Source: Capsulimonadaceae bacterium
GTDB taxonomy: Bacteria > Armatimonadota > Armatimonadia > Armatimonadales > Capsulimonadaceae
Direction: 5' to 3'
Length of the DNA: 46,314 nucleotides
Assembly (NCBI GenBank): GCA_031292625.1
Contig: JARLGU010000002.1
Coordinates: 1-46,314 of the forward strand
Position numbers and translations under genes: made by a program. Below, one piece after another: positions 1 through 36,820 of the stretch (positions are counted from its first letter, which is position 1; each line of letters opens with the position of its first letter). The notes under the pieces were generated by a model, which was not told the origin of the DNA, did no database searches, and saw only the letters and a program-made list of their open reading frames with translations.

Positions 1-141
1 GCGCCTCGTTCACTGCGGTGTTTTACGATGCTTCGACGACACGCGTACAGCCCTTTGCCGCCATCGTCCGCCGGTCACGGACCGGTCTCGCTCGCGCCTC
101 GTTCACGGCGGCGATTTACGATGCTTCGTCAACACGCGTAC
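1..141. repeat. Imperfect direct repeat, two copies of about 48 bp
   Basis: Positions 1-48 and 94-141 share the pattern GCGCCTCGTTCAC, TTTACGATGCTTCG and ACACGCGTAC with a few substitutions, giving a period of 93 bp. The element may continue to the left of the window. No coding frame is evident. It could be the end of an intergenic repeat family or a decayed duplication. Confidence 0.5.
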
Positions 142-658
142 GGCGTTTGTAGCTAACGTCCGATAGCGGCACGCATCGCGAAGTCACGAAAGCGCTGCGT
201 CGGCCCTTTTTCAAAAACGGCCACGGCGGCCGGGGAGCCGTCCTACAAGTTTTACACACGCTCCTACAAAGCGAATGTCCCAATCAGATTGAATCGAGCG
301 CGAGAACGAGACGATTCCGTAATTGGCTAGCGACGTGACGCATGGGAATGCGCGTCGCATTTAAAGACTTCCCACAACGCGGCTAAGATCCGCTGCGGCG
401 ATATTCTTGCGCGGATGGGATTGCGAAACCGGGCGCGAATTTGCCACGACGCATTCGCGATAACGGACCTGTGCAAACCTACCCAAGTCGGCAGGTAAAG
501 ACCGCTCATTCGGGCAGCGCATGTTGTCCAGACGTCCTGACATAATATATCAAAGCGATCCACATCAGCGGCATGTTGGCTTACTCGGATCGCTTCAGTT
601 ATAAGGATTGTGGCCGCCAAGCACGAGATAATCAGTCGACAAAGAGGAGTGGAAACTA
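142..658. other. Intergenic stretch without a convincing gene
   Basis: Short overlapping open frames exist on the minus strand, but they lack ribosome binding sites and recognisable protein character (Arg/Ser/His-rich translations typical of shadow frames). The octamer TCCTACAA occurs twice, near 242 and 261. The last 20 bases carry the ribosome binding site of the next gene. Confidence 0.5.
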
Positions 659-1009
659 ATGGCAACAGCTGAAGTGAATGCAACCGACCGGTACGCTTCC
701 AGCGTGGCGAAACGCTATACGGATGCTTACCGGGTCGCGAAGATCTTCGCATTCTTCGGAGGTTTCACGAAGGTCCTTGGATTCCTGATTGCGGCCCTCA
801 TGGTTGCGGCAGGATGCGTATCCTACAATCCCAATCAAACGATGGCGGTCGCGGCCGTTGGCGTTGGGATCGTAGTGTGGATTAGTTCCTTCGTTGCAGG
901 CATGCTGATTTCGGCACAGGGGCAGGTTCTCAAGGCTAATGTCGATACCGCGGTGAACACGTCGCCTTTTTTGTCCGACAGTCAACGTGCAACAACAATG
1001 TCGTTGTAA
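659..1009 (+). CDS. Small membrane protein, unknown function
   Basis: A 116-residue protein with two predicted hydrophobic helices, roughly residues 35-55 and 61-84. The charged N-terminus (about 30 residues) and the polar C-terminus would lie on the same side of the membrane. A good Shine-Dalgarno (GAGGAG at 644-649) precedes the ATG. I do not recognise the family. It opens a run of same-strand genes for exported or membrane proteins, which suggests a surface role, but no function can be assigned. Expression from its own promoter is likely, since more than 600 bp upstream lack genes. Confidence 0.6.
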   Translation: MATAEVNATDRYASSVAKRYTDAYRVAKIFAFFGGFTKVLGFLIAALMVAAGCVSYNPNQTMAVAAVGVGIVVWISSFVAGMLISAQGQVLKANVDTAVNTSPFLSDSQRATTMSL

Positions 1010-1296
1010 GCCGCGAAAATGTCGCACGCAACGGATGTGCGGATATGTGGCCAGGCTGGCGCAACCACGCCGTCGCTCCTGACGCTCCATCGCCATCTAC
1101 TGGAGTTTATGATACGCCGTCGTGCGACCGGCCGCAGACCACGCGCTAGGCTTGTCGTCGAACAATGGCGGCTTTAGGCCGCCTCGATTGAGAACCGCCC
1201 TGTGAGTCCGACGCGTTCAAGAAGCCGTGGCGCGCGTGCGCACTTAGATAGACGATGCTGCTCACGCCGAGCGCGCATCGTAGAGGATTTTGCATC

Positions 1297-1971
1297 ATGA
1301 ATACGAAGGCGCGTTGGATTGCGCTTACACTGCTGCCGGCAATATACGCGGGCTTCGGCATCTTGGCTCTGACGACACATCCATTGCCCGCAAATGCCGC
1401 GGCGTCTAGTCGCCCGAGCAAGGGGCAGATCGTGGATGAACTCAACAAGATCGTTCCTCTGGACAGTTTCGACGCCTCTCATCCCATCAGTCAGCAAGCC
1501 CTTTGCAAGTGGTTGCTGGATCTCGGATCGTTCTGTGCACTCCCAGGAGACAGGGATGCGCCCGCCAGACCAAATTGCGACGACAGCATCGGCAAGGCGA
1601 GCGCAAAGCTGTTCGTGAGGCGCCTGGTCGGGCAGGACCTGGCATCGTGGCCTTCCCCAAGGTCGGCGACGCCGCTTCAGGTGACCGAGGACTACGTCGG
1701 CTGGACTGGCGACTCAGCGAACTCGGTCTGGTTCCACCTCCCCACTGTAGAACTGACGGCGAAGCCGCGCGAGGCAGCCGGACAACTTTTGGTCAGCTTC
1801 CGGGTTGTTAACGCGTGGAATAAGGGAGTTCTCTCGTCGACTGGTGGAAGCGTTTTAGAGACTGTCGCAACCGGCAGCGCCGTGATCGAGTACCGCGAAG
1901 GCAACTGGACCGTGACGAGTTGGCACGTCATGCGTAACCGGAAATGGAAGCACGTTACCCTGAGGGCGTAG
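1297..1971 (+). CDS. Exported protein of unknown function
   Basis: A 224-residue protein. I chose the ATG at 1297 (MNTKARW) rather than the upstream in-frame ATG at 1255, because it has a GAGG motif about 10 bases before it and begins directly with a signal peptide (two basic residues, hydrophobic stretch, cleavage near ANAAAS). The mature part has four cysteines in its first third (CKW, FCAL, NCDD region), which could form disulfides outside the cytoplasm. The C-terminal half looks like a small beta-rich domain (repeated V/T-rich strands ending TSWHVMRNRKWKHVTL). No family is recognised. The next gene follows after about 100 bp on the same strand and is also exported. Confidence 0.55.
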   Translation: MNTKARWIALTLLPAIYAGFGILALTTHPLPANAAASSRPSKGQIVDELNKIVPLDSFDASHPISQQALCKWLLDLGSFCALPGDRDAPARPNCDDSIGKASAKLFVRRLVGQDLASWPSPRSATPLQVTEDYVGWTGDSANSVWFHLPTVELTAKPREAAGQLLVSFRVVNAWNKGVLSSTGGSVLETVATGSAVIEYREGNWTVTSWHVMRNRKWKHVTLRA

Positions 1972-2078
1972 GCGGTTCCCCGCGTGCACGTTGAAACCAT
2001 GCGAGCCGGGTACGGTTTCCCGGCGCTTGCCCTGATTGGGGACTCTGTAGTTCGATTATATGAATGAGGATGGGCACT

Positions 2079-2675
2079 ATGAAGCAATTGTCTGGAATCT
2101 TGCTCGTTGGAGCGATACTGGCAGCGTCGTTGGGCGTCGTTTTCGCTTCGCCGACCGGCGGTCCGTTTAATACGTATCGGGCCGCAAAGGATCTTGCGAG
2201 TGGCCTCCTGTCCGTGTCCGGACCGAGTAATACGGCAAAAGCATCGACCTTCGACCTCGTGTTTTTTGGAGTTTACAGCGCGCTGTTAGATACGCCGGAA
2301 GGCAAGAGCTTCCCCGAAATGACCGATCACGCGAAGGTTCCCGCACAGGCGGCAGCGAAGCGCGTCAGGTTGCTTCTTGGCGTTCAAATGCCGCTCAAGA
2401 GCGCTAAGTCGAAGGACGTCGCGATCAAACTCAAGAATGGCTTCTTCCTAGCGCCCCAGGAGGATGACCTTGGGACGGAACTCAAGGATGTCCGCGTCAG
2501 ACTACGTGCCGGCGGTCTTTACGAAATAGTGTGCCAGTCAGAAGACAACGCAGGAGACCCGGTATTCGCGGTAATCAACGCGCGCAGGGTTAAAGACGAT
2601 CTTGGCGAACGTCTGGTATCAGTTACGTGGAGCGTTGATCGAAAGCGCAATGGGCTTCCGTCTTGGCCGATATAG
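2079..2675 (+). CDS. Exported protein of unknown function
   Basis: A 198-residue protein with a clear signal peptide (MKQL, hydrophobic core, cleavage near VFASP). The ATG at 2079 is preferred over 2064 because GAGGA at 2066-2070 lies eight bases upstream. The mature region is mixed alpha/beta with a lysine-rich central segment. Its C-terminal strand pattern (YEIVCQ, VFAVINA, LVSVTWSVDRK) suggests a compact secreted domain. No known family. It is separated from the next gene by only 30 bases and is probably co-transcribed with it. Confidence 0.55.
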   Translation: MKQLSGILLVGAILAASLGVVFASPTGGPFNTYRAAKDLASGLLSVSGPSNTAKASTFDLVFFGVYSALLDTPEGKSFPEMTDHAKVPAQAAAKRVRLLLGVQMPLKSAKSKDVAIKLKNGFFLAPQEDDLGTELKDVRVRLRAGGLYEIVCQSEDNAGDPVFAVINARRVKDDLGERLVSVTWSVDRKRNGLPSWPI

Positions 2676-2705
2676 TTTCGCAACAGGCGACGAGTAAATT
2701 GTCCG

Positions 2706-3914
2706 ATGAACACGATAAGCTCTTCGGTATCCGACCGGCGAACTGCAACTTGGAATCCGAGAGGCAACCGGCGTAAGCTGTTCGGCGTCATCGTCGCCTT
2801 TGTCCTGGTCGGCGCGGTTGCGGCGCCGGGGTTAATTCTCACAAAGTTTCCCGGCGTGGCCGCGCATTTGGTGGACGATTTCCTGCGACCGGCATTCGGC
2901 GACGAGCATGTCGCGCGGCTTGAGCGAGTTCTCTTCGATGCTCAGGATTGCTTTGACAGGTTGCGCGGTAAGCGGGTAGACCTGAGGGCGATCGCGCCCG
3001 AGGAGGCGTCTGCCGCTGCTCCGCCGAGTCGTCACCGCGACCAAGAGCGCGATAACAAGGCCGCCGTTCCGCTCCCGATGAACCTGCATTTTGGGTTGCC
3101 AGATGTCAAGGCACTTCCCGGCGAGGGCGTTTGGAAGCGAATTGGCAGGGATGGCCTTGTCGCAACCTTTGTCCGCACGGATAAAGTGCGCCCTTACGCC
3201 GTCGTTTCCATAGTCCGCATGCCGATGCGCTCGCTTCGGCTTGGCATGGCGGCCGGTCTGAAACAACCCGGCGGTCAATTTGGCTTCCCTGGCCCTGGCA
3301 AAATCACGACGGACCTTCAGCGTAACGGACGCCTAGTCGCCACATTCAACGGCGGCTTTCGTTACGGCGACGGCCACTACGGTATGCAGGTTGAGAACGC
3401 CCGCTACGCCCCAATCGTCCCTGGCTTCGCAACCGCAATGATTTATCGTGACGGACATGCGTATATTGCGAAGGTCAACTCCGACCGCTTGCCGAAACAA
3501 GTTATAGCCGCTCGGGAGAACGGACCGCTTCTTGTGGCGAACGGCAGGCTGGATCCGAGAACGTCGAAACAGATCTGGTTGTGGGCGGGCGATCGAGGCG
3601 GCGTCTATGTGACCTGGCGCTCGGGACTTGGCGTGCTGCCCAATGGCGACCTCGTGTGGGCTGGCGGACCGTCGTTGACTCCGGCTGCGCTCGGAAAGGC
3701 GTTCGTGCTCGCTGGCTGCGTCAATGCAATGGAGTTGGATATCAACCTTTTCTGGGTGAGGTTTACGCTTTACGACTGGGATGGACACAAATACAAATGG
3801 CGCCCGCTCAACAAAGAGCTTCCGGACCAGGGGGCCGTTTACCTGCACGGGAACGAAAAGGATTTCTTCTATCTGTATCGTCCTGAATCTCACATTGGCA
3901 ATCGATCAAAATAG
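2706..3914 (+). CDS. Membrane-anchored phosphodiester glycosidase-like (NAGPA/DUF2233) protein
   Basis: A 402-residue protein. A basic N-terminus is followed by one transmembrane segment (about residues 25-45), a variable linker, and from about residue 125 a domain resembling the NAGPA family (phosphodiester glycosidase, PF09992/DUF2233). Family-like signatures are the ATFNGGF motif near residue 215, a GPLLVANG strand, a VYVTWRSGLGVLPNGDLVW segment, and the C-terminal LAGCVNAMELD motif, where the family carries an active-site-region aspartate. Relatives hydrolyse phosphodiester-linked sugars on glycans or process exopolysaccharide. The domain should face the periplasm. It ends the leading cluster of exported genes and converges on the AraC-type gene, leaving only about 20 bases between them. 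Confidence 0.7.
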   Translation: MNTISSSVSDRRTATWNPRGNRRKLFGVIVAFVLVGAVAAPGLILTKFPGVAAHLVDDFLRPAFGDEHVARLERVLFDAQDCFDRLRGKRVDLRAIAPEEASAAAPPSRHRDQERDNKAAVPLPMNLHFGLPDVKALPGEGVWKRIGRDGLVATFVRTDKVRPYAVVSIVRMPMRSLRLGMAAGLKQPGGQFGFPGPGKITTDLQRNGRLVATFNGGFRYGDGHYGMQVENARYAPIVPGFATAMIYRDGHAYIAKVNSDRLPKQVIAARENGPLLVANGRLDPRTSKQIWLWAGDRGGVYVTWRSGLGVLPNGDLVWAGGPSLTPAALGKAFVLAGCVNAMELDINLFWVRFTLYDWDGHKYKWRPLNKELPDQGAVYLHGNEKDFFYLYRPESHIGNRSK

Positions 3915-3934
3915 GGTTCAACGGCGACCCCGCG

Positions 3935-4858
3935 CTACGCAGGGGAAACGTTTCGCATCTGCCTGACGTCGCTCATGGGAGGAGCGCCGAAGAAGCGCTT
4001 GTACTCTCGGTTAAATTGCGACGCATCGTCGTAGCCGACTTTAAAGCCCGCGCCGGCAGCGTCAAAATCACCGTTGAGCAAAAGCCGGCGGGCCTCTTGC
4101 AGGCGGAGTTGTTTCTGGAACTGCAGGGGGCTCATCGCGGTGACCGCCTTGAACTGGCTGTAGAATGACGACGGGCTCATTCCTAGCTCGCCGGCGACGT
4201 CATCCATACGCAGCGGCTTGTCGAAGCCGTTGCGCAGCTTCTCGATTGCTGTCGTGATGCTGTCCGTGTATCCGGTGAGCATTGCGATATGGCGAAGCCG
4301 AGCGCCCTGGTCGCCGAGAAGGAGCCGGTAGACGATTTCGCGCATGATCATTGGGGCGAGTACGCGGGCATCGCCGGGGCTGTCGATGAGGCGAACGTAT
4401 CGCACGACCGCGTCGAGAAGATCCTCATCCAGGGTGTTCACCGCCATCGCCTTGACTCCGGCGCAGTTTTGTGACACGACCTGTCCGGCCTCCACAATAA
4501 CGGATCCGACCAGAGCCGGATCGAAGTCTAGCCGGACGCCAAGGTAAGGGCATTCCGGCGACGCGTCGACAATCTGCCCCGTGTACGGGAGCTCAGCGGT
4601 CACGATCAGGTACTGGAACTTGCGGTAGGTAAGCCGGTCGTCGCCCAGCAGGAGGATCTTGGCCCCCTGCGCCAGGATGCAGATCGACGGCTCCGAAACC
4701 CCGTGGATCGGTTCCGACGGCCTGGAATAGCGGTTTAAATGCAGCCCCTTTACCGGCTCCAAAGTCCCATCCGCCTGAGCGACGGCCTCGATCCGGCCGT
4801 GAAGCTCCTCCTGCAACGCTTCGAGCCTTTGCCGGGCATATATTTCAGATTGTGCCAT
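3935..4858 (-). CDS. AraC-family transcriptional regulator with AraC_N cupin
   Basis: A 307-residue protein. The N-terminal ~190 residues match the AraC_N type of effector domain (EPIHGVSEPSICILAQGAK...LLGDDRLTYR, then the ELPYTGQIVDASPECPYLG segment). The C-terminal ~100 residues carry the two helix-turn-helix motifs of AraC proteins (RMDDVAGELGMSPSSFYSQFK and the conserved AAGAGFKVGYDDASQFNREYKRFFGAPP). An AGGAG Shine-Dalgarno lies about ten bases before the ATG. In this subfamily the target is often an adjacent oxidoreductase, but none is present here; the nearest divergent genes are the small membrane ORF and protease fragment. The target is therefore unknown. Confidence 0.9.
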   Translation of the reverse strand: MAQSEIYARQRLEALQEELHGRIEAVAQADGTLEPVKGLHLNRYSRPSEPIHGVSEPSICILAQGAKILLLGDDRLTYRKFQYLIVTAELPYTGQIVDASPECPYLGVRLDFDPALVGSVIVEAGQVVSQNCAGVKAMAVNTLDEDLLDAVVRYVRLIDSPGDARVLAPMIMREIVYRLLLGDQGARLRHIAMLTGYTDSITTAIEKLRNGFDKPLRMDDVAGELGMSPSSFYSQFKAVTAMSPLQFQKQLRLQEARRLLLNGDFDAAGAGFKVGYDDASQFNREYKRFFGAPPMSDVRQMRNVSPA

Positions 4859-5078
4859 GACGAGAACTTTCTCCTGCTACGACGCCGTCTGGGCGACTGA
4901 CACGGCTTGCGGGATCGTACAATAGTGAAGCAATCACGTTCGTTCTCAATCTCGCGTTTGAGTGTAATATAGCATTATATATCCGCTAACGCGTGTAGAG
5001 TCTTCCAGCTGACAGGGATTTGTATACAATGGCGATTCCTCTGCAGGAGGGCGACGAACATGTATGGCGTCCCGGACG

Positions 5079-5222
5079 TCAGCGACGTGGGGATTTAATT
5101 AAGTTAATTACGATACCAATAAATAGTAAGAGTGAAATTACCGCAATAACAATAATGATGGGCGGGATCGTTTCGCAAAAGTCTTTAAGTCCTTGTGTCA
5201 ATTTTCTTAAAAAGTTCGCCAC
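5079..5222 (-). CDS. Short single-span membrane protein, GTG start
   Basis: A 47-codon frame on the minus strand starts with GTG at 5220-5222, preceded by AGGAG with eight bases of spacing, and ends with TGA at 5079-5081. It encodes a basic/amphipathic N-terminus (VANFLRKLTQGLKDFCETIPP), a strongly hydrophobic helix (about residues 21-42, rich in I, V and L), and a basic tail ending KSPRR. That design is typical of small inner-membrane proteins. The stretch is visibly AT-richer than its surroundings. Its ribosome binding site abuts the truncated protease fragment on the other strand, so it marks the junction of that remnant. Function is unknown; the evidence is only frame, start signal and hydropathy. 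Confidence 0.5.
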   Translation of the reverse strand: MANFLRKLTQGLKDFCETIPPIIIVIAVISLLLFIGIVINLIKSPRR

Positions 5223-5237
5223 TATAAACGCTCCTGA

Positions 5238-5696
5238 AGCACTCTCGTCTCACAGGCGACGGCGATCTGGCAGCCACAGGCGAATGTCATCTTCTACAAT
5301 GCTAGCGGTCCTTCGCCCATTAATGATGAGAACGTTAAAATATCCGATGCCGCGCTAACGGAAGCGGACCTCGCGGCAATCGCGAGCAGTGAGAAGATCC
5401 AGACACCGTCAGGCGCAGACAAAGCGATCAACGTGTTCTTTGTCTGGAGCTTGCCGAAGGCAGACGACGGCGCTGATGTCATAGGCAAAGGTCAAGTGGG
5501 TGGCAATGCCATCTGGCTCATTGATGGTGGTGGCGAAAGTGGGACGTTGGCGCACGAGGCCGGGCACACGTTCAATCTCCATCATCCTGACCTGGCCGCA
5601 AAGCTAGGTAATGAGAGGCTGATGTGGTACCAGGGAAGTCCCATTGACCGAATTAGCAATGCTGAGGCAACGACAGCTCAAGGACTTGGGAAGTAA
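5238..5696 (+). pseudogene. 5'-truncated metzincin-like zinc metalloprotease fragment
   Basis: The frame is open from just after a stop at 5235-5237 and contains no ATG, GTG or TTG until GTG at 5433. Protein-like sequence (SQATAIWQPQANVIFYNASG, then EADLAAIASSEKIQ) already runs through that upstream part. The conserved core is HEAGHTFNLHH, an HExxHxxxxxH zinc-binding motif of metzincin type, with Asn where many families have Gly. No signal peptide or N-terminal domain is present, so the gene appears to have lost its 5' end. Alternatively a short protein starts at 5433. It ends five bases before the next coding sequence, an exported HEAT-like protein, with which it would be co-translated. Confidence 0.6.
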
Positions 5697-5701
5697 CTAT
5701 T

Positions 5702-6847
5702 ATGAGCATAACAGATCGTCACCAACACTCAGTGTCACGTACGCTGGTAATACCTGTGGTATTCCTGGTGATCAGTTTTCATGCCCTCGCCGATGGGCTC
5801 GCGCGGGCCGATTCACGGCCGACCGATTTGGCCACATTGGTGGATCAGGCGGTCAACGCGTATGTGCGTAAGGACGGTGCGGCCAAGATCGTTGAGTTGG
5901 GCCCTTATGGCGACGCCGTTCTTCCATATCTAAAGAAATATGTGTCTAACGCAAATATGGATGTGCGATACGCAGCTGCGATGATCGCTGCCAACGCAGA
6001 GTCCGAGGCGGCAATTCCAATCCTGGACTCAACCCTTCGGGGCGATACTGCCATGTGCGATTTCCTATTCGAGTGTTTCAGTCCCGAGATCGTACGTAAT
6101 CGCGGCGGGATACCGGTTCGGGATAATCTCATTTGGTGCATTCTGCACGGCAACGGTCACGGCCGGATCATCGTGTATCCGCTTTTGCTTACATCTTTTC
6201 GCAACGATCCAGTTGTGCTCGAATTCTTGAAGGGCCTCCAGCGGATGGAAATTGTGGCTCCGAGCAAGATCGTGTCGATGCCGCCGTTAGCGCCCCCGGC
6301 AGCCATCGCCCGTCTGGGGGCCGTCGCTCCTCCCATGTCCATTCCGGACTTGGGCGAATGTTACGTCGTCGAAGGTCACGAGGTTCCTTATGAGTTCGGG
6401 CTTCATTTGGCTCTCGCCAACCTTCACCAAAGAAGCGATGAAGAGGCAGTACTTTGGAGGTTGCGTCACAACGACGTTACCAGCATTAACTGTACACTCT
6501 ATTGCGCGCGGTATGTAACTAACAAGCGACTTTTGCTGGCCCTCGTCGAGCTGACAAAAAACCACACGTTGACCGATATCCCCAAGCCCGGCACGTTGGG
6601 CGGCGATACAATGACCGACGCCAGTTATATGCGCGTGTGCGACTATGCCGTGGGAATGCTTACGACGACTTTGCAGGTTGACGTTGGCATCCCCGACCTA
6701 ACGGCGGTAGCGCTCAAGAAGCAGCCAGATCACTATCGGCGGATCACGTTCGACTCGCTTCCCCCTGTACGCCAATACACCGAACCGGAGCTCAAGATGG
6801 CGTACGATCGGCTCAAGGCCGCGGTAGAGAAGATGAAGGACCAGTAA
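5702..6847 (+). CDS. Exported HEAT-repeat-like protein
   Basis: A 381-residue protein with a signal peptide (hydrophobic segment at about residues 14-30, cleavage near HALADG). The mature region contains helical hairpins of HEAT/PBS type (PYGDAVLPYLKKYV...DVRYAAAMIAANAESEAAIPIL), later helical segments (FGLHLALANLHQRSDEEAVLWRL), and a charged coiled C-terminus. Such repeats serve as protein-binding scaffolds. It begins five bases after the metalloprotease fragment, so it may be translationally coupled to it; an inhibitor or immunity role toward that protease is conceivable but unproven. Its stop codon is followed at once by a headless Ig-repeat gene, which is an unusual junction. Confidence 0.6.
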   Translation: MSITDRHQHSVSRTLVIPVVFLVISFHALADGLARADSRPTDLATLVDQAVNAYVRKDGAAKIVELGPYGDAVLPYLKKYVSNANMDVRYAAAMIAANAESEAAIPILDSTLRGDTAMCDFLFECFSPEIVRNRGGIPVRDNLIWCILHGNGHGRIIVYPLLLTSFRNDPVVLEFLKGLQRMEIVAPSKIVSMPPLAPPAAIARLGAVAPPMSIPDLGECYVVEGHEVPYEFGLHLALANLHQRSDEEAVLWRLRHNDVTSINCTLYCARYVTNKRLLLALVELTKNHTLTDIPKPGTLGGDTMTDASYMRVCDYAVGMLTTTLQVDVGIPDLTAVALKKQPDHYRRITFDSLPPVRQYTEPELKMAYDRLKAAVEKMKDQ

Positions 6848-6938
6848 CAGTCGCGCCTCAGCACTTGGCGACTACATCATCCTGGTCACGGGCACGGATG
6901 CGAACGGCAACACGACCTCGTGCTCGGTCGAGGCCCAG

Positions 6939-9134
6939 GTGCAGACGGCCAGCTTCACGATCTCGTCAGATCCCGGCTACCTCGACGTCTCTGCCGGCGA
7001 TACCGGCGGCGACTGGAGCGACATCACGGTAACGCCGATTGGTTCGTTCACCGGCCCGGTTACGCTTTCCGTGACATCGATCACCGATGCGAACGGTGCG
7101 GCGGCGAGCGGCGTCTCGGCCGCGTTCGAGTCGTCGAACGGTCCTGCATCCAGCGGTGTCAGCGTGCCCGGCAACGCAAGCGATACGCTTTGGGTAACCG
7201 CATCGTCGTCGGCTCCGCAAGGCAGCTATACGATCACGCTGACAGGCACGGACAGCGGTGGCAACACGACCACGACGCAGCTGACCGTGCAGGTGGACGC
7301 GGGCTTCAACCTGTTCGCGACGCCGCAGAATGTGACGCTCGCGCCGGGCAGCAGCACGGTCGCGGGCGGTAGCGGGCTGAACGCATCGCCGGTGATCACG
7401 GCGACATCGGCAGGTGACGCGACGGGGGCTACAATCACGATCCTGCAGGCGAATATCTACGACGAGAACGGCGATGAGGTAACCGACGGGAGTGTTAGCA
7501 TTTCGGCCCCAGGCTCGGTCACGGTCGGCGGGGCAGGCAGCCCAGCGACGATCACCGTCGGTAGCGGAGCCGCAAACGGCTCGACGTACACGGTGGCGAT
7601 CACTGGCCAGGATGCGGCCGGGAATACCAGCTATGCGTGGATAAGCGTTACGGTTGGCGCACCGGGGCTGTCGCTGCAGGCGAACCCGAGCACGGTGAGC
7701 GTAAACGCAGGAGATACAACCGGTGCGCTGAGCGTTGTGACGGTCACTCCGACTGGCGGCTTTGCCGGATCTGTGGGCCTTTCCTATACTACGACAAGGC
7801 CGAGCGGTTACGCGGGGACACTGCCGGTCGTGATCTTCTCGCCAACATCGGTCAGTATTACGGACACGAACAGTCAGACCAGCAATGCAACGATCACGGC
7901 TGACGCGACCGTAGTACCCGGCCAGTACGCGATAACGTTGACCGGAGCGAGCGGCGCCGTAACAGCGAGCAAGCAGATCACTGTGGTCGTCAATTCGGCC
8001 GGCTCGCAGACGCTATCGATCACGACAGGCAGCAATAGCGGAAACGTGGACTTGCCAATCGATCTGACAGCAACTGGCAGCCTAGCGAGTACCACAGGCT
8101 ACAGGTGGAGCACGGGAACAGTCTGGCGTTCCGATACGGCGTCGGGCACCTACAGCGTCTATACGGGCAACGATATTACTTACAATCTGATCGACCAGAA
8201 CGATCCAAGCAATACTGCGACGAACGCAGCCAACCCCTTGTCCGGTGCGACGCTCAACAATGCGAGCAATGCGCTCGAAGTTCAGGCGACCTTCGGTACA
8301 CCCGGGTACTACATCATTCAGGTGAATGCGACGGCGGCGGTCAGTGGTAAGACTTATACGGCGACGGGGTATATCGGCGGCAATCCGCCGAGCGGCTCGT
8401 CAAGCTCGTCATCCCAGAATGCGAACGCGAAGACCGCCAACGCCGCCACGGCCAATGACAGCACGCCGACACCGAATACTCCGGTAACGGTAAGCGGGTG
8501 GGCATTTGGCTACTCCTTTAGCGACGCGTGGGGACAGTTCATAGCAAACCAGTGGTTCTATGGTGGCGGAAGAATGGTTAACTTGTATCAGGGAGATACA
8601 TACAATTCCAGCAAATATGGTAAGAGCCAGCCAATTGAGGTGTATATGATGGCAAACGACGACTTCACCAGCTTGGCACACAATGCGATCCTACCCTTTA
8701 TACAAAATTTCAGCCATACTGCCCTAAAGGGAACGACTTCCATACGATTCCATGGTGAGGTCCAAAACGACACCATGGGGCCAGCGCAGCTTCGCGGTAA
8801 GATTCCATACGACTTGACCGGCTATAATCTCATGCATGGATCGAAGGCGAGCGTGGGGGATGTTCAGGCATCTGTTAGCTTTTCGAGATCGTCCCCGCTT
8901 TCGCCAAAGGTGAATTATCAGATTAACTGGAGCTGGAATGACATTATAGATGTCAACTCGTCGTATTCCGTAGACATTGTTGTTGCGGCCGTTTCCAAGA
9001 TTTTCGGTTGGATCATATCCGGTAATCCCACGGATTTCCAGTATCGAATTCGGTGGTCTACAAATGGGTATTTTGTGCAGGGTAGCGGTCGATCTCTTGG
9101 AAATGTAACTGGCTGGCCTTTAACTTCACCTTGA
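6939..9134 (+). CDS. Headless Ig-like repeat protein with unique C-terminal domain
   Basis: About 731 residues if GTG 6939 is the start. The same frame is open back to the HEAT gene's end and already encodes repeat sequence (GDYIILVTGTDANGNTTSCSV), so the true 5' end, including any signal peptide, is missing. Residues 1-470 hold four or so Ig-like beta units with recurrent motifs (GSYTITLTGTDSGGNTT, GFNLFATPQNVTLAPGSSTV, SYAWISVTV). A Ser/Asn/Ala/Thr-rich linker follows at about residues 485-520. The final ~215 residues form a different, aromatic-rich domain (YQINWSWNDIIDVN, YRIRW). Base composition drops sharply there: I count 45 G+C of 60 at 7321-7380 but 25 of 60 at 8581-8640, which suggests separate origin. 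The gene end touches the next frame, as expected for a tip/partner pair. The function of the C-terminal domain is unrecognised. Confidence 0.6.
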   Translation: MQTASFTISSDPGYLDVSAGDTGGDWSDITVTPIGSFTGPVTLSVTSITDANGAAASGVSAAFESSNGPASSGVSVPGNASDTLWVTASSSAPQGSYTITLTGTDSGGNTTTTQLTVQVDAGFNLFATPQNVTLAPGSSTVAGGSGLNASPVITATSAGDATGATITILQANIYDENGDEVTDGSVSISAPGSVTVGGAGSPATITVGSGAANGSTYTVAITGQDAAGNTSYAWISVTVGAPGLSLQANPSTVSVNAGDTTGALSVVTVTPTGGFAGSVGLSYTTTRPSGYAGTLPVVIFSPTSVSITDTNSQTSNATITADATVVPGQYAITLTGASGAVTASKQITVVVNSAGSQTLSITTGSNSGNVDLPIDLTATGSLASTTGYRWSTGTVWRSDTASGTYSVYTGNDITYNLIDQNDPSNTATNAANPLSGATLNNASNALEVQATFGTPGYYIIQVNATAAVSGKTYTATGYIGGNPPSGSSSSSSQNANAKTANAATANDSTPTPNTPVTVSGWAFGYSFSDAWGQFIANQWFYGGGRMVNLYQGDTYNSSKYGKSQPIEVYMMANDDFTSLAHNAILPFIQNFSHTALKGTTSIRFHGEVQNDTMGPAQLRGKIPYDLTGYNLMHGSKASVGDVQASVSFSRSSPLSPKVNYQINWSWNDIIDVNSSYSVDIVVAAVSKIFGWIISGNPTDFQYRIRWSTNGYFVQGSGRSLGNVTGWPLTSP

Positions 9135-9160
9135 TTGCCGCTTACTTGTTAGGTCTAATA

Positions 9161-9664
9161 GTGAATATTAAAAAATTTCTAATTATAATTATCAAAACAG
9201 TGGCATTGCTACTGCTGCTATTCTTCGTTGTTTTCGCGTATATTAGCTTCCAACCGAGGGTGTCATATGCCGAGCAATCAGACACACGCTTACAGGCTAT
9301 GGCTAGTCTGGTGCGGCTATACGTGAGTGAACGTGATGCACCACAATGCGGGGAGGTTGGTCCGTATATTGACGCTTCCACTTTGACGAGAGCCCTATCA
9401 GAAGGACTACCACCAGCCAGCCGATATATTGAGTTTAAGCAGCCGCCGTATGGTTGCTCGTACATCGTAAATACCTCATTTTCAAGCGTACGGGGCGCAC
9501 GCGTCGATCAACATACGATCGTAGTGGCAGAGGCCCGAGAAGCTCCAGATGGAACGCGCGGATACGCATGCTTGTCTGGACAGGTTTATCGCGTCAGCGG
9601 TGGCAAGTGGTCGGGCATTTACAGCGCCCAACTCAAGAGCGCATATCCATTAAGGATGCCATAG
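9161..9664 (+). CDS. Membrane-anchored extracytoplasmic protein, possible immunity protein
   Basis: A 167-residue protein from GTG 9161 (VNIKKF, lysines directly before the membrane helix). An alternative TTG at 9131 would overlap the upstream stop by four bases. There is one N-terminal membrane helix (about residues 5-28), then an extracytoplasmic domain of about 135 residues with three cysteines (QCGE, YGCSY, ACLS) and strand-like segments (HTIVVAEA, GQVYRVSGGKW). Its low-GC composition matches the C-terminal domain encoded just upstream, so the two probably travelled together. Immunity proteins against toxins that act outside the cytoplasm often have this anchored design, but no homology is recognised. 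It could simply be a small envelope protein. Confidence 0.6.
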   Translation: MNIKKFLIIIIKTVALLLLLFFVVFAYISFQPRVSYAEQSDTRLQAMASLVRLYVSERDAPQCGEVGPYIDASTLTRALSEGLPPASRYIEFKQPPYGCSYIVNTSFSSVRGARVDQHTIVVAEAREAPDGTRGYACLSGQVYRVSGGKWSGIYSAQLKSAYPLRMP

Positions 9665-10077
9665 TGACTCGTCGCCAATGTGACAGCACGTCCACGCCGC
9701 TGAGCGTTCCCGGTAACTCAACCGACACCCTGTGGGTGACCGCTTCGGCCGCAACTCCGCAGGGCGAGTACACGATCACGCTGACAGGCAAGGATAGCGC
9801 GAACAACACGACTTACACGCAGCTGACTGTGCAGGTGGACGCGGGCTTCAACCTGTTCGCGACGCCACAGAATGTCACGCTCGCGCCGGGCAGCAGCACG
9901 GTCGCGGGAGGCAGCGGCGCGAACGCGTCGCCGGTGATCGCGGCAACCTCGGCAGGCGATGCCTCGGGGACGGCAATCACCCTCCAGCAACCGCTGGTCT
10001 ATGACAGCAACGGCGACCTGGTTACCGACGGCGCCGTGACGGCAACTGTTCCGGGCTCGGTCGCGGTGACGGTTTGA
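9664..10077 (+). pseudogene. Truncated second copy of the Ig-repeat gene
   Basis: About 135 codons closely match the protein encoded at 7130-7550: VPGNSTDTLWVTAS, TPQGEYTITLTGKDS and GFNLFATPQNVTLAPGSSTV occur in the same order. Long DNA stretches (for example 9835-9905 against 7292-7362) differ at only a few bases. It lacks a signal peptide and any tip domain, and ends in tandem stops (TGATAA) inside a repeat unit. It begins at the stop codon of the preceding gene, exactly as the larger copy begins at the stop of the HEAT gene. Best read as a remnant or silent donor cassette, not a functional gene. A GTG at 9664 could allow translation. Confidence 0.65.
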
Positions 10078-10926
10078 TAAACCGTGTCACTTGCACATTC
10101 AATCGAATTGGATTTCAATCGGGTAAGACATGAAAGTGTCGTTTCGCGGCAATTCTTTATTTTCTACATTGTCATGTTTGCGCCAGCGCGAATTTGGGGT
10201 AATCCTATCGTTGTGAAGCGCTTAGTTTTCCTTGCGTTTTGCGCCAAAAAAGAGACAAGCGTTCCTTGAGATTGCTGGCGGCCGGTCAGGCCGTATCGAT
10301 TGACCGATCGTCGTTGTTGGGGCGGATTGGTTCTCGGAGGTGCTGGCCATGCGAGACGAGACCAACCCTTCATGCGAGGGGGGCGAGGGAATTGCGGGGC
10401 TTTCCCGGCGGCGCCGCCGTGCTTATGTCTTCCGCCATTTCCTCCGCTGTGCGACATCCTCCGGATCTCACGCGAGTTTGCGCAACTGCGTCTCCGCCAT
10501 GCGTCCTGATCCTGCCGCGAACCCCCAAGGACCTACGTGCACCAGCGGCGACAGTCGTGGCAGATGCGCGCCATCTTTACCCGTCATCTCACCGCCAGCG
10601 ACCCGCTTCGCGCGATCTTCACATATGCAGCTCCTACGAGCGCCGCGCGGCGCGCAAAGCCTGACGCCGGTCTCTCCGGTCGTTCAATTCGTCGCAGGAG
10701 CCAGGCAATATGCCCCCACGAACTTCGTGAGACCCTCCGTTTCGACACAATGCTTGCCGAGCCGGAAAGGGGGTTCGTGCAGGTTAGGGCAGGCTATCAG
10801 CGCAATGGAGGCGCACAGCGCCGTCGTACCTGGCAAGGCACACTTTAGGAATGTGAAGCCATTGTAGGAAAGTAGAACGTTCGGTTTCTGTTACCCGCCA
10901 GAGGCGGAGGAAATGGAGGCCGGTAT
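10078..10926. other. 849-bp stretch without a convincing gene
   Basis: The first ~190 bases are AT-richer than what follows. From about 10,260 the DNA is GC-rich and several long overlapping frames occur in all registers, but their translations are Arg/Ser/Cys/Pro-rich and lack domains or start signals. No tRNA, terminator or attachment site is apparent. Its last bases provide the Shine-Dalgarno (GGAGG) for the next gene. Confidence 0.5.
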
Positions 10927-30306: not shown

Positions 30307-33300
30307 CTACGTAGACGATTTGCCGGCGCCGGGCTGGATGGCGATGATCTGGGTCGAAACACCGCCCGCGGTAATGTTGACCTCGGTGCCAGTGCTCGTT
30401 CCCGTGTAGTATCCGAAGAGCGTAACGGTCGCCGTTGTTGTGCCTGCCGGTACGGTTATGGTTGGCGGGACACTCACGTTCGACGGCGAACTGCTGGTTA
30501 GCGGCACGGCGAAGCCTCCCGTCGGCGCGGGGCTCGACAGGTTGACGGTGAATTGGAACGATTGCCCGCTCTGAATCTGCCCCTTGTTGATGCTGGTGCT
30601 ATAGACTGTAGGCGCTGTAATCGTGAACTGCTGCGTCATCTGCTGGCCGTGATAGCTTGCGGTTATGGTGACGAGCGTGTTTACGGCGACAGGTTGGGTG
30701 AGGATCGTGAACATCCCGATCGTTCCGTTGGCGGGAACGGTGACGGTCGTCGGGCTCACGGTCGCAGTCGCGTTGCTTGATCCAACCGTGACCGAGATGC
30801 CGGGGTTCGATACGAACTTGGTTGTGACCGATCCTGACAGCGACTGCCCGCCGACTACGACCGTGTTGGCTAGCCACAGATTAGACAGCTGTGGAACGCC
30901 AACATTGATCGGCGCGCTCGTTCCGGTCACGGCGGCGCTTGTCGTGTCGGTTGCGGTGAGCGTTTGGTTGCCAACCGTATTAAGCGTAGCGGTGAACGTC
31001 TTGACGCCGTTCGTGAGCGTGGAGTTGGCCGGGAGCGACGCCGCGCCATCGCTCGACTTGAACTTGACCGTTCCCTTATAGCCGGTCGCCGTGTTGCCGT
31101 AGGCATCAAGCGCGGTTGACGTGAAGCTGAATGATGAACCGGTCGTCGCGAACGCTGGGACCGAGAGGCTAAAGTGCGTCGCCGCCCCTGGAGCGACGTT
31201 GATTGGTGCGCTCGTGCCCTTGATACTGCTTGTTGTCGTATCCGTCGCCGTGATGGTCTGGCTGCCAGCCGTCACGAGTGTCGCGCTGAACGTGCCGGCG
31301 CCGCTCGTAAGCGAAGAGTTCGCAGGCAGCAAGACGCCCGCGCCGGAATCTGTTGACGTAAATCCGACAGTACCGCCGTAGCCCGTCGCGGTGTTGCCAT
31401 ATGCGTCGAAAGCGGTGACTGTGAAGCTCAACGCCGTCCCGGCCGTTGCCGTGCTCGGAGCCGAGAGCGTAAAGTGAGTCGCCGCGCCAGGCCCGACGGT
31501 GATCGTGCCGCTGGTTCCAGTGATGCTCGACGTTGTCGCGTCGGTCGCGGTAATCGTCTGGCTGCCAGCGGTTTTCAGCGTCGCGCTGAAAGTGCTCGTG
31601 CCGTTGGTCAACGTGGCGTTCGCGGGAAGCGAGGCCGCGCCGTCGGTCGATGTGAAGTGGACCGTGCCGCCGTATCCGGTTGCCGTATTTCCGAACGCGT
31701 CAAGCGCGGTGACCGTGAAGCTCAACGCCGTCCCTGCCGTTGCCGTGCCTGGCGCCGAGACCGTAAAGTGAGTCGCCGCACCAGGGTTGACGGTGATCGG
31801 CCCGCTGGTTCCGGTGATGCTCGACGTTGCCGTGTCGGTCGCGGTAATCGTCCGGCTGCCAACGGTCTTGAGCGTCGCGCTGAAAGTGCCCGTGCCGTTG
31901 GTCAACGTGGCGTTGGCGGGAAGCGAGGCCGCGCCGTCGGTCGATGTGAAGTGAACCGTGCCGCTGTAGCCGGTTGCCGTATTTCCGAACGCGTCAAGCG
32001 CGGTGACCGTGAAGCTCAACGCCGTTCCGGCCGTTGCCGTACCTGGCGTCGAGAGCGTAAAGTGAGTCGCCGCGCCAGGTCCGACGCTGATCGTGCCAGA
32101 CGTACCGCTGATGCTCGATGTCGCCGTATCGGTCGCCGTGATTGTTTGGGAGCCGGCCGTGACGAGGGTCGCGCCGTTCGTGAACGTGTGGAGGCCGTTG
32201 TCGCCGCTGGTAAACGTGTAGTCGGATGGCAGCGATGAACCCGCTCCAGAGTCCGTCTTCGTGAAGTGGACCGTGCCCCGGTAGCCGGTTGCCGCGTTGC
32301 CATACTGGTCGAGCGCGGAGACTGTGAAGCTCAACGCGGTCCCGGCCGTTGCCGTGCCTGGCGCCGAGACCGTAAAGTGCGTCGCGGCTGCCGCGCTCAC
32401 GCTAATCGATCCGCTGCTCCCCTTGATGGTGCTCGTCGACGCGTCGGTTGCCGTGATTGTCTGGCTACCGGCCGTGACGAGGGTCGCACTGAAAGCGCCC
32501 GTGCCATTGGTCAGGGTTGCGTCTGCCGGAAGCGTCGCCGCGGCGTCTGTCGATGTGAAGTGGACCGTGCCGGTGTAGCCGGTCGCGGTGTTGCCGTTTG
32601 CATCCAGCGCCGTGATCGTGAAGCTGAACGCTGTGCCTGCCGTTGCCGTGCCCGGAGCCGAGAGCGTAAAGTGAGTCGCGGGGCCTGGACCAACGGTTAT
32701 TCCGCTGCTCGCGCCTGTGATGCTTGAATTGCTCGTATCTGTTGCCGTGATCGTCTGACTGCCAGACGTAACCAACGTGGCGCTTAACGTGCCCGTTCCG
32801 TTCGTAAGCGGTCCGTCCCCAGGCAGCGAAACTCCACCGGCCGCGTCTGTAGTCGTGTAGTGAAGGACGCCGCTGTAGCCGGTCGCGGTGTTGCCGAATT
32901 GGTCGAGAGCGGTAACCGTGAAGCTGAACGCCGCTCCGGACGTTGCGGTGCTCGGCGCAACGACGCCGATGTGCGTCGCGGCAGCCGGGCTGATGGTAAA
33001 TGTGTTGCTTGTCACCGTCATGGAAGCATTTGCCGTATCGGTTGCCGTGATCGTCTGACTGCCGGCAGTGACGAGGGTCGAGATGAACGCGCCGAGACCT
33101 GAAGTCAATGTCGAGTCGGCCGGTAACGACACGCCAGCTCCAGAGTCGGTGCACGTGAAGTGAATCGTTCCCGCATATCCGGACGCGACATTGCCATAGG
33201 CATCCAAGGCCGATACGCTCAATGAGAACGGTATTCCGGCCGTCGTATTCGGGATCATTGACATCGCTAAATGAGTCGCGGAGCCGGGACTGACATTAAT

Positions 33301-36300
33301 CGATCCGCTGGTTCCCTTAATGCTGCTCGTCGTCGTGTCGGTTGCTGTAATTGTCTGGAGCCTCGACGTTTTGAGCGTTGCGCTGAGCGTGCCGGCGCCG
33401 CTTGTCAGCGCTGCGTCTGCCGGCAGCGTCGCCTGGCCGTCCGTCGACGTATAGTGAACGACGCCCGTATAACCCGTCGCGGTGTTGCCGGCGTCGTCGA
33501 GCGCAGTTACCGTGATGCTAAAGGCAACTCCGGCCGTTGCGCTGCTTGGAGCGGAGACGGCAAAGTGAGTCGCCGCGCCTGGGCTGACAGTGATCGTGCC
33601 GCTGGTTCCGGTGATGCTCGACACGTCCGTGTCGGTCGCTGTTATCGTCTGCGAACCGACGCTGTCAAGCGTCGTCTGGAAAGACCCCGCGCCGTTTGTG
33701 AGCGTGCTGCTCGAGTGGAGGAGGGCGGCGGCGGCCGTCGTTGAGAATTCAATAGTACCGCCATACCCGGTAGCCTTGGCTCCGGTCGAGTCAAGGGCCG
33801 TAACCGTGATTAAGAACGGCGTGCCAGCTGTCGCGGTTGTAGGAGCGGATACGCTGAAGTGCGTCACGACGGTATATGTCGCGACTGCCGCCGAGCTGCT
33901 CGTATAGCCAGTCGCGACCGCAATGGCCTTAACCGTCTCATTTGCGGTTAAAGTGAGCTCGCCCGTATAGCGAGTCGAGCCCGTGGTTGGCGTCGAGTTG
34001 TCAGTCGTGTAGTAGATCGCGAACCCGGGCGCACTGGATATCGAGCTGTCGGTGATCGCCACGGTCTGGCCCGAGCTGACCGTTCCCGAGGCAGGTCCAA
34101 TCGTAGGCGTCGGCGCAGTTTGCACAACCACTGCCGTGCCGAACTTCGCGACGAAGCCAGCTTCGTTGCCGCTCGCCGTCCTGATCGTCGTATCGTAGGC
34201 GCCTGCTGTAACCGGGAAGTTGGTGGACGTCGCGTAGCCCGCAATGTAGACATTGTTGTTTGAGTCGACCGCGATAGCGCTGCTAGTATCGGACCCGGAA
34301 CCTCCCAGATACGTCGAGTAGACGAGCGATTTGCCGTCTGGAGCGAGCTCAGTCATGAATGCGCTGTCGGCGCCCTTTAGAGTGGTCTGATACGCGTCCG
34401 TGGTCGTCGGCCAGTTCGTGCAGGTCGTGTTGCCAGACACATACACATTGCCGCTTGAGTCAACCGCGATACTGTTTGGGTTATTGAACGGTCCGGCGCC
34501 GTTGAGAAAAGTCGAAAAGACAAGAGCCATACCTGTCGAATTCAACTTGGTGACAAATCCTCCCTCGTCGGTGGATAGAAAGGCCGTTTGGAACGCGCCG
34601 AAGGTAACAGGATACGTATTCACATCCGTATTTCCGCAGAAGTAGGCGTTACCGCTCGTATCTATGCAGAGCGCATAAAGCTCGTCGGCGACCGTGCTGC
34701 CAACGAGCGTGCCATAGACTTCCGCGGAACCTGCTGGATTTAGCTTAACCACGAAGGTGTTGGCAAGTCCGCTGAGAGACCGTTGATAGGCGCCCGATGT
34801 TGTCGGGAAGTTCGATGATTCCGTAAAGCCGCCAACATAGGCGTTGCCGCTCGAGTCGACCGCAATGGCGTTCGCGCCATCCTGACCATTCCCGCCTAAG
34901 TATGTCGAATACACGAGTCCCGTGCCGGTCGAGTTTACCTTGCTCACGGCTGCGTGGTACTGCGTGCTTTGAGGATCGGTTGATTGGAAAGAACCCGAGG
35001 TTGTTGGATAGTCCGTTGAACCTTCGAAAACAGATATATACGCATTCCCGTTTGAATCCACGGCAATGCCGGTGCCCGAATCCCCGCCGCTTCCACCCAC
35101 GAAGGTCGAGTAAAGCAGCTCGGAACCCGACGCGCTCACCTTGGCGACAAACGGCTTATAGTTAGAGCCAACACTCCTCTGAAACGCGCCTGACGTGGTC
35201 GGAAAGTTCGTGGAATACGCGGTCCCCGTAATGTACGCATTGCCGCTTGAATCCAGCGCAATGCCCGCGCCAGAATCGCCGCTGCCGCCGCCGATGTACG
35301 TCGAAAAAACCAGGCCTGAGCCCGCTGCATTCAGTTTGGTTACGTATGCGTTCCCGCCGCCGTTAACGGTCTGATAAGAACCGGATGTGGTCGGAAAGTC
35401 GCTCGACCCATCAGCGCCGGTCACGTATGCGTTGCCGCCGGAGTCTACGGCGATTCCGTTGCATATATCATTGCCATCGGAGCCGCCGAGGTACGTGGAA
35501 TACGCCAGCGCTGGGTCGATCACGAGGGGGCGCGCCGCATCGTACTTTGCGACCGCGAAACGAACAGAGGAACCGTTTGCGGCGAGCACGTAGCTACCCG
35601 CGACCGGCTTGCGACGCCCGGCGGAGTCCAGCTGATAGACAACCGGCTTCTTCCAAACGACATCGCCATTAGGCAGGCCAAGCGCTAGATCGCCGCTCCC
35701 CGTTAGGCGCACGGATTTCGCGCCAGAGAATGTCAGCTCAACTCTAGACGGATCGCCTCCCGGCATGACGACGAAATCGTATTCCAATCGGCCGTTCGTG
35801 TCGTAATAAACCAGATCGACGCTCTTGTAAATGTCCCGGAATGCAATTCGGCGGTAAGTCGGAATATTCGTGTGCCACTTCTTGGGGTCGTTGCCTATGA
35901 AATAATTGACCTTGCCCGGCAACTCGTCCAGGCCGCAAGCCTTTGCGTCGGCATTCGCGCCAGCAACGCCCATTCTAAGCACTGTAATCGTACGCTTTGC
36001 TTGCGTGCGCCGGAAGCGGGCTCCCGGATCCTTTGGGTCTAATCTTCGAGGCTGGGGCGACGAATGGGTCAAGCTCAGGACGGCTTCCGTGCCGGTAAGG
36101 TAGAGCGTTTGACCCGCGCCATGCGTAATGAACTTGACTCGCTTATCCGTCTGACCTTCGTTGGGCTCGAATTGCAGCGGCAGCCGGCCATACCCGGCCG
36201 CCAGAGACTTTCGCATCGCCGAATTGCTGTCAATCCGGCCTGCGGCCCTTGCTGGCGGAGCGACAAGCAAAACAAGGGCTACGATGGCCGCTGCGATTGT

Positions 36301-36330: not shown

Positions 36331-36820
36331 GAGATCTCCTAGGGCTAAGCACCGAACAGGCGCACAGACGCACACAAGGGGGAATAGGGCGATGCTGTTT
36401 TAGGCTCGCAATATCCCCGTCAATTGGTCGCAAGTTCTTTCGGTTTTACGATTGCCGCAGACGGGGGAGCGATACTGCTGCGCCTACTTGTCTACAGACA
36501 ACCGCTATTACCCAGGAATCCAAACTCATCAAACACAATTGAATCATTTTGTGATAAATCTTCGTGCAATGGAGTGCCCAACGCAGAGGCAATCCGGACA
36601 ATTGGGCGTAAAGAAGTGCGAAATTTGCAGAATATAAACACGAAAAAAAATGTTGCGCGATCGCCAAGGGCTTAGGCTGCGGCGGCGTAAGTGTTTGGGT
36701 ACAGCGGACAGTGGCCGGGTATTGAGTGGCAATTTCAGGGAAGTTGAGGATAGGCTGTCGCGCAATATGCGCCACATGGCCTTGAACAAATCCCGTGCAA
36801 TGAAAGAACGATACAGTTGC
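36331..36820. other. Intergenic stretch between the giant gene and fumC
   Basis: About 490 bases, AT-richer than the surroundings. A 128-codon minus-strand frame (36,446-36,832) has no ribosome binding site and low-complexity Cys/His/Gln-rich sequence, so it is not called. The AGGAG Shine-Dalgarno of the giant gene lies just above 36,336. The promoter should lie here; a TTGACG on the minus strand near 36,420 is a possible -35, without a clear -10. Confidence 0.45.

Follow-up and report, generated by a model that had tools for sequence, protein, structure and literature searches.

The window analysed here is a 46,314-nucleotide stretch of DNA from a Capsulimonadaceae bacterium and corresponds to the whole of contig C56 in an assembly of 5.77 Mb, 65 contigs and 96.41% completeness; the genus of the source consists of this one genome. 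At positions 5238-10077, three units (A, B and C) follow each other in a row on the plus strand, as was claimed in an initial annotation and as the reading frames bear out (Table 1). In unit B, a fragment of an immunoglobulin (Ig)-repeat protein ends in a C-terminal tip some 220 residues long, and a small gene lies directly downstream. The reading that we favour, with a probability of roughly 0.7, is that the tip is a colicin M (ColM)-like, envelope-acting toxin domain, that the small gene encodes its membrane-anchored protector, and that both have been displaced from an exported Ig-repeat carrier.

The frame of unit B is open from 6837 to 9134 (765 codons), with no start codon ahead of a GTG at 6939. 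The Ser-rich linker and the AT-richer C-terminal domain that had been described for it are recovered in the translation and in base composition: the GC content of the tip is 0.477, against 0.622 and 0.657 for the cores, and that of the small gene is 0.489, values as low as these being found in 1.0% (tip) and 2.2% (small gene) of window stretches of the same length. RHS repeats and CdiA domains are absent from 6849-9131, for which the matches in Pfam and NCBIfam are all weak and mostly of Ig type. The small gene does touch the end of unit B, as proposed: its first possible start is a TTG at 9131 (a GTG at 9161 could also be used), which gives an overlap of at most 4 nt with the tip, and its hydrophobic N-terminal region reaches a Kyte-Doolittle value of 3.12 over 15 residues. 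Export of this and of all other proteins mentioned here was judged from hydrophobic N-termini alone.

Table 1. Features of the array at 5238-10077 of the window, with the evidence for each.
Feature	Position	Strand	Evidence
Unit A, headless metalloprotease fragment, candidate displaced tip	5238..5696	+	Stop-to-stop frame, 152 codons
Unit A, candidate immunity gene for a HEAT-type protein whose N-terminus is hydrophobic	5702..6847	+	ATG 5 bp past the protease stop
Unit B, scaffold fragment of Ig repeats lacking its 5' end	6849..8390	+	Open frame; Ig-type Pfam matches all under cut-off
Unit B, Ser/Asn/Thr-rich linker	about 8391..8474	+	Translation
Unit B, C-terminal tip, ColM-like clade, motif WNDIIDVNSSYSVD	8475..9134	+	Member HMM, alignment A4, AlphaFold2 model
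Unit B, candidate immunity gene, small, with membrane-anchored product	9131..9664	+	Overlap with tip stop; hydrophobic N-terminus
Unit C, second truncated Ig-core fragment, tipless	9664..10077	+	Similarity to unit B; frame stop at 10077

Relatives of the unit B tip and the genes next to them

A search of the genome collection with a two-row alignment of tips identified 17 loci with tip relatives elsewhere, 16 of them intact. The remaining locus (L020), which carries the same decayed sequence as contig C128 of genome G243, was excluded both from this count and from the resulting alignment (A4), whose 17 rows are the window tip and its 16 intact relatives; not all of the latter are independent, since L013 and L016 come from one genome and L019 and L021 are nearly identical. 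When the 925 frames of the window are searched with a hidden Markov model (HMM) built from the 16 other members, the window tip is the sole match at E<=1, with an E-value of 1.5e-24. The motif WND[IV]IDxNxx[YH]xxD, part of which had been used in fetching the loci, occurs in all 17 rows, and the His of a second motif, HG[STP], which played no role in fetching, is kept in 15 of the 17 (Tyr in L023 and Asn in L027). The window tip frame is intact and retains all 16 columns that are invariant across the alignment. In a tree it joins L014, both on long branches, and its placement is unsure.

The relatives are found on several types of toxin scaffold. Pfam RHS_repeat domains lie in the same frame as the tip in six loci (L013, L016, L018, L022, L023 and L024), WXG100 is above the Pfam cut-off in two (L026 and L029) and T7SS_signal is present in one (L025), while the tip frame of L014 comes after VgrG and PAAR genes; the tip is thus common to other toxin scaffolds in ten of the 16 intact loci, nine named by Pfam and one by its VgrG-PAAR context. 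For L017 and L028 an Rhs-associated core was recognized by eye, without Pfam support, and L019, the scanned one of a nearly identical pair with L021, is WXG100-like under the cut-off; Pfam gave no scaffold family for L015 and L027. With relatives on Rhs and WXG100/type VII secretion system (T7SS) scaffolds and behind VgrG and PAAR genes, the 17 loci support the view of the unit B tip as a C-terminal module that can be transferred.

Within the phylum the tip profile matches only the source genome and G243 (2 of 291 genomes); Pfam and NCBIfam models gave only scattered single-member matches among the 17 members at E<=10, and nothing was found for the tip in phages, plasmids and viral contigs, nor for the tip of a relative in plasmids. 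In G243 the relative (L006, about 1064-1800, with the same sequence in L020) is decayed, contains an internal stop and lies between fragments that look Rhs-like by eye, the preceding one without a Pfam RHS match. The record of L017 is titled as a Klebsiella pneumoniae metagenome-assembled genome; by eye its sequence is unlike that species, probably owing to a binning error.

A small, apparently exported gene lies next to the tip in the window and in 15 of the 16 intact relatives, L014 being the sole locus in which none was found downstream. In 14 loci this gene has 131-166 codons, a hydrophobic or lipoprotein-type N-terminus and a start between -16 and +170 nt from the tip stop, L013 with its gap of 170 nt being counted as having one; in L017 it starts within the tip. 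Twelve of the 15 share a VWVYSGDVG-like motif (eleven aligned, together with L017; grouped by eye) and are referred to as type 1, whereas the type 1 HMM does not match the divergent genes of L013, L016 and L018. The small gene of the window is alike in topology but matches neither of these groups; it has no match in Pfam, NCBIfam or PHROGs, and in a search of 61 genomes it matched one other, weakly. Several unrelated membrane-associated immunity proteins have been written of for ColM (PMC5821083). By analogy, such diversity fits the lack of a family match for the window gene and is no proof of its role.

Fold of the tip and relation to colicin M

The tip was modelled with AlphaFold2 on the 17-row alignment, with a predicted local distance difference test (pLDDT) score of 76.8 and a predicted template modelling (pTM) score of 0.76; a fold computed from the single sequence had a pLDDT of 41.9 and was not used. 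In a Foldseek search of the PDB the top five matches were colicin M and pectocins, the best with an E-value of 4.2e-3 and a probability of 0.94. VIA-align, which re-ranks the Foldseek matches, listed ColM proteins in ten of the first eleven rows (Z 4.6-7.0), the remaining row being the type VI secretion system (T6SS) effector BtpeA (Z 5.6) and the next unrelated row scoring 3.8. A fold search of BFVD with the tip found nothing, and sequence searches of the PDB, with the single sequence and with the profile, gave nothing useful, the two profile matches at E<=10 being non-TelC proteins.

Profile comparison with hhalign gave a score of 30.2 for A4 against four ColM domains, and 15.5 when reversed. 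Two hundred shuffles of the ColM columns had a mean of 13.1 (standard deviation 2.3, maximum 20.5), 200 shuffles of the tip columns reached at most 20.9, and two unrelated control profiles scored 13.8 each. The score was 32.7 without the window row (maximum of 150 shuffles 24.2) and 32.2 without the ColM row that is borne on an Rhs protein. In a joint alignment of four ColM proteins with 15 of the 17 tips (L016 and L021 being left out), no columns are invariant apart from those of the Asp pair in the DXYD motif, and YLxGxG and DxxD elements are colinear between tips and ColM. The first of these Asp is said to bind magnesium in PaeM (PMC8469651), and the longer signature DXYDX5HR has been given as required for the hydrolase, although some ColM proteins carry degenerate signatures (PMC5821083). 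On the evidence of fold and profile, the tip clade is most likely a distant family of the ColM fold; we use the term ColM-like for the tip without classing it as a ColM member. A Pfam-recognized ColM tip does occur in the phylum, in one of the 291 genomes (G222, PF14859, E 2.6e-10), on a gene that looks Rhs-like by eye (L043, 394-2626) and is followed by a gene with a hydrophobic N-terminus and then by another Rhs-like fragment.

Several observations count against this relation and against the reading built on it. None of the Foldseek matches to ColM falls below an E-value of 1e-3, and all VIA-align Z-scores are under 8, a range in which, by the tool's own warning, matches possibly share a common arrangement only. 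HH-suite assigns the tip-ColM pair a probability of 17.6% with an E-value of 0.0014 (29% without the window row), and the window tip alone scores 18.6 against ColM (E 0.074, probability 0.8%), so that the link to ColM rests on the family and not on the window sequence by itself. Of the DXYDX5HR signature both Asp are kept, the Tyr is replaced by Ile and the HR is absent. Pfam Colicin_M (PF14859) has no match among the 17 members at E<=10, and none in the source genome at E<=0.001. Short motifs that included part of the tip motif served to fetch the 17 loci, so the conservation of that motif is partly a product of selection, and the count of 15 downstream genes in 16 relatives stands without a control rate for unrelated genes. 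Against the type 1 HMM the window small gene scores no better than its own shuffles; unit B lacks a good start and, judging from its frame, may be silent; and no close full-length parent was found in the source genome, as assembled in 65 contigs.

The most probable of the rival readings is that unit B does carry a displaced toxin tip whose fold or target is not ColM-like, the tip being another envelope-acting enzyme that is matched through a common half-barrel. Foldseek E-values above 1e-3, Z-scores under 8, an HH-suite probability of 17.6%, a window tip that alone is not significant against ColM, the missing Tyr and HR and the lack of a Pfam match would all agree with it. We nevertheless consider it unlikely, given that the ColM rows stand well apart from the next one (Z 4.6-7.0 against 3.8), that the profile score tops all 550 shuffles of the three runs and is more than twice that of the two unrelated controls, and that the YLxGxG and DxxD elements are colinear.

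Units A and C, a parallel array and the search for a parent gene

Unit A opens, as had been claimed, with a startless protease fragment, followed 5 bp on by an apparently exported HEAT-type gene with its ATG at 5702. The earliest possible start in the protease frame is a GTG at 5433 and the first ATG lies at 5622. The fragment contains the zinc-protease motif HEAGHTFNLHH and is matched under the cut-off by Pfam Reprolysin_5 (E 0.0029); its matches in six other genomes of the 291 are confined to the HExxH stretch. For the HEAT-type gene, Pfam HEAT_2 is likewise under the cut-off (E 0.00037), and a search of 61 genomes returned the gene itself and one weak match. From its form and by analogy, unit A could be a protease tip paired with an immunity protein of HEAT type, and Imm-HEAT proteins have been listed for other toxins (PMC3482391).

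Unit C resembles part of unit B: its positions 9703-10031 align to 7161-7489 with 81.7% identity over 333 alignment columns (E 2.9e-76). A repeated core without its 5' end, as in orphan tip cassettes, is therefore present in units B and C, both of which also match a protein encoded on contig C25 (see below). The initial annotation placed these cores immediately at the unit borders and likened the array to the form of truncated core, variable tip and immunity gene in CdiA and Rhs loci. The units are indeed closely adjacent and the second core is truncated; real gaps of about 15-40 nt separate them, however, as the similarity to the C25 protein begins about 15 nt past the stop of unit A at 6847 and the copy in unit C starts about 39 nt past 9664. 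The core-tip-immunity form holds for unit B, while no Ig core was detected in unit A and unit C lacks both a tip and an immunity gene. The stop at 10077 lies within a near-palindrome, and the roughly 850 nt that follow the tipless core (10078-10920) contain no convincing gene and may hold remnants of a lost tip and immunity gene. Elsewhere in the window, the minus strand encodes a protein of 2022 amino acids (30307-36375) with many similar Ig-type repeats by eye, which was not listed in the searches with the unit B core.

A similar array is present in a Balneolaceae genome (L028, 3591-10812), where Rhs-type core ends are combined with four or more tips belonging, as judged by eye, to at least three kinds. 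It starts with an exported-looking gene that has a metalloprotease-like tip (HELAH) and is followed by a membrane gene. Copies of the repeated core end, SPYVYAGNNPxxL[ST]DPTGMSTECNEGE, then carry, in order, a tip of the ColM-like clade with its small gene, a different tip followed by a lipoprotein-like gene and, last, a second metalloprotease-like tip (HEFVH) with a membrane gene. Pfam found nothing at E<=0.01 in the two metalloprotease-like frames. In the copy with the clade tip, the core (5537-5911) and the tip (5797-6318) lie in different, overlapping frames, and this copy may be broken. Both arrays strikingly have a metalloprotease tip beside a ColM-like one, which may be due to chance.

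A close full-length parent was looked for in the source genome. The C25 protein, an open reading frame of 1119 amino acids with a hydrophobic N-terminus and the product of the one other gene there that both units match well, has the same Ig repeats at 33-37% identity to units B and C, and by eye its C-terminus consists of WD40-like repeats and not of a toxin tip; we regard it, on its sequence, as a paralogue and not the parent, so that the search, covering 65 contigs at 96.41% completeness, yielded a distant relative and no close full-length gene. At that locus (L005, C25:20000-32000; 14-3571 and 3690-7049), where a C-terminus that is no toxin follows the same Ig core, the paralogue stands beside genes that look WD40-like and caspase-type by eye. 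A further match in the genome, on C34 (E 0.0077), was rejected as parent, as it reads like a glycosyl hydrolase by eye, and peptide patterns of the unit B protein found nothing in the collection of genome contigs (genome_contigs). Across the phylum the unit B protein is matched in seven of 291 genomes including its own, the other six weakly. The match in G243 is to the tip and not the core, and those in the five others (L007-L011) were set aside as other Ig-type proteins by eye; no such tip was found in these five loci, all of which were read on one strand and three also on the other.

The suggestion that the array consists of toxin tips is borne out in the transferable tip, the small gene next to it and the similar Balneolaceae array, and falls short in the full-length parent, which was not found. 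The headless frames and the missing parent would also be seen if the array were the product of ordinary decay, that is, pieces of a large Ig-repeat surface protein with unrelated neighbours and no toxin role, the tip being a normal domain of that protein; the HEAT-type and small genes, each weakly matched in just one other genome of 61, and the WD40-like end of the C25 paralogue agree with this as well. Such an explanation is improbable when set against a tip that is common to Rhs, T7SS and T6SS-linked genes, with small apparently exported genes next to it there, and whose frame in the window is intact with 16 columns invariant in 17 rows. An assembly artefact, in which parts of one long repeat-rich gene cluster were misjoined, is very improbable: the assembly has 65 contigs and repeat-rich genes can break assemblies, but units B and C are just 82% identical, too divergent for a simple collapse, and the frame of unit B is intact across 765 codons.

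Proposed mechanism, known systems and meaning

In the favoured reading of a displaced ColM-like tip with its protector, recombination within the shared Ig core would give the parent gene a new toxin tip, and each swap would push downstream the previous end of the core together with its tip and immunity gene, which would generate units A-C. The tip would act in the envelope of a neighbouring bacterium; its action outside the cytoplasm is suggested by the neighbour genes of the family, which look exported, and by ColM, which acts there. Its target would probably be lipid II or a similar undecaprenyl-linked precursor; we do not fix the substrate as lipid II because the Tyr and His-Arg of ColM are gone from the clade. 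The product of 9131-9664 would guard the producer outside the cytoplasm. A more far-reaching version is tentatively put forward here: the clade may be an uncatalogued branch of the ColM fold whose active site has been rebuilt (the Asp pair retained, Tyr and His-Arg gone, the HG[STP] His in 15 of 17 members) and whose substrate is maybe other than lipid II, used across phyla as a tip on four carriers (Rhs, T7SS, T6SS-linked and Ig-repeat) with exported immunity families of its own, the Ig repeats forming a scaffold in their own right.

Among known systems, the array is closest in layout to orphan modules of Rhs and CdiA loci, with which it shares the succession of a truncated core, a tip of other composition, a small gene and, last, a tipless copy of the core. 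C-terminal displacement, orphaned tips and, at the 3' end, truncated and tipless Rhs copies have been described, and Rhs loci of Snodgrassella show that same order, with the tipless truncated copy last (PMC5727410). The difference is that the core consists here of Ig repeats without an RHS match and that the search for a full-length parent gave none. Toxin carriers with Ig-type parts have precedents, since bacterial Ig domains are mentioned beside Rhs toxins (PMC3482391) and TANFOR toxins come with Fn3 and PKD domains (PMC7073777); a recombining core made of Ig repeats was not found in the accessible parts of the literature searched, which covered polymorphic toxins, orphan tips, colicin M, TelC and DUF3289.

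The colicin M family (PF14859; colicin M, pectocins M1 and M2, PaeM and syringacin M) provides the best fold matches of the tip, which has the Asp pair of DXYD and a YLxGxG-type element in common with it, and the predicted extracytoplasmic, membrane-anchored topology of the small gene product is that of Cmi (PMC5821083). The clade differs in lacking the Tyr and HR and a Pfam match, in having the HG[STP] His and a conserved Asp further on, and in being carried by Rhs, T7SS and Ig scaffolds as a polymorphic tip. T6SS effectors of the DUF3289 family, proposed as ColM homologues (PMC11148199, PMC12135965), are comparable as ColM-like envelope toxins beyond the bacteriocins, and one of their immunity proteins has a signal peptide and membrane helices; DUF3289 itself (PF11692) has no match in the 17 tip members or in the 291 genomes of the phylum, the source genome included. 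TelC, a lipid II phosphatase exported by the T7SS and paired with the immunity protein TipC (PMC6193138, PMC5821083), resembles the clade as a T7SS-delivered toxin working outside the cytoplasm, as is presumed for the tip, and differs in a fold said to be other than that of ColM (PMC5821083). A relation of the tip to TelC found no support, there being no sequence match in the PDB and no TelC among the fold-search rows listed. The tip clade was not found in the accessible parts of that same literature either, and strings of the tip motif gave no hit in PMC3482391. What is known, then, is the formation of orphan tip arrays by C-terminal displacement; the tip clade and the Ig-repeat scaffold are new.

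If the favoured reading is true, ColM-like toxins, so far bacteriocins and DUF3289 effectors, would extend to the weapons of T7SS and Rhs systems, and at least one new candidate immunity family would be added to them. The Ig-repeat protein would be a recombining carrier in an uncharacterised genus, and the clade, with its clear motif, would make these proposals readily testable.

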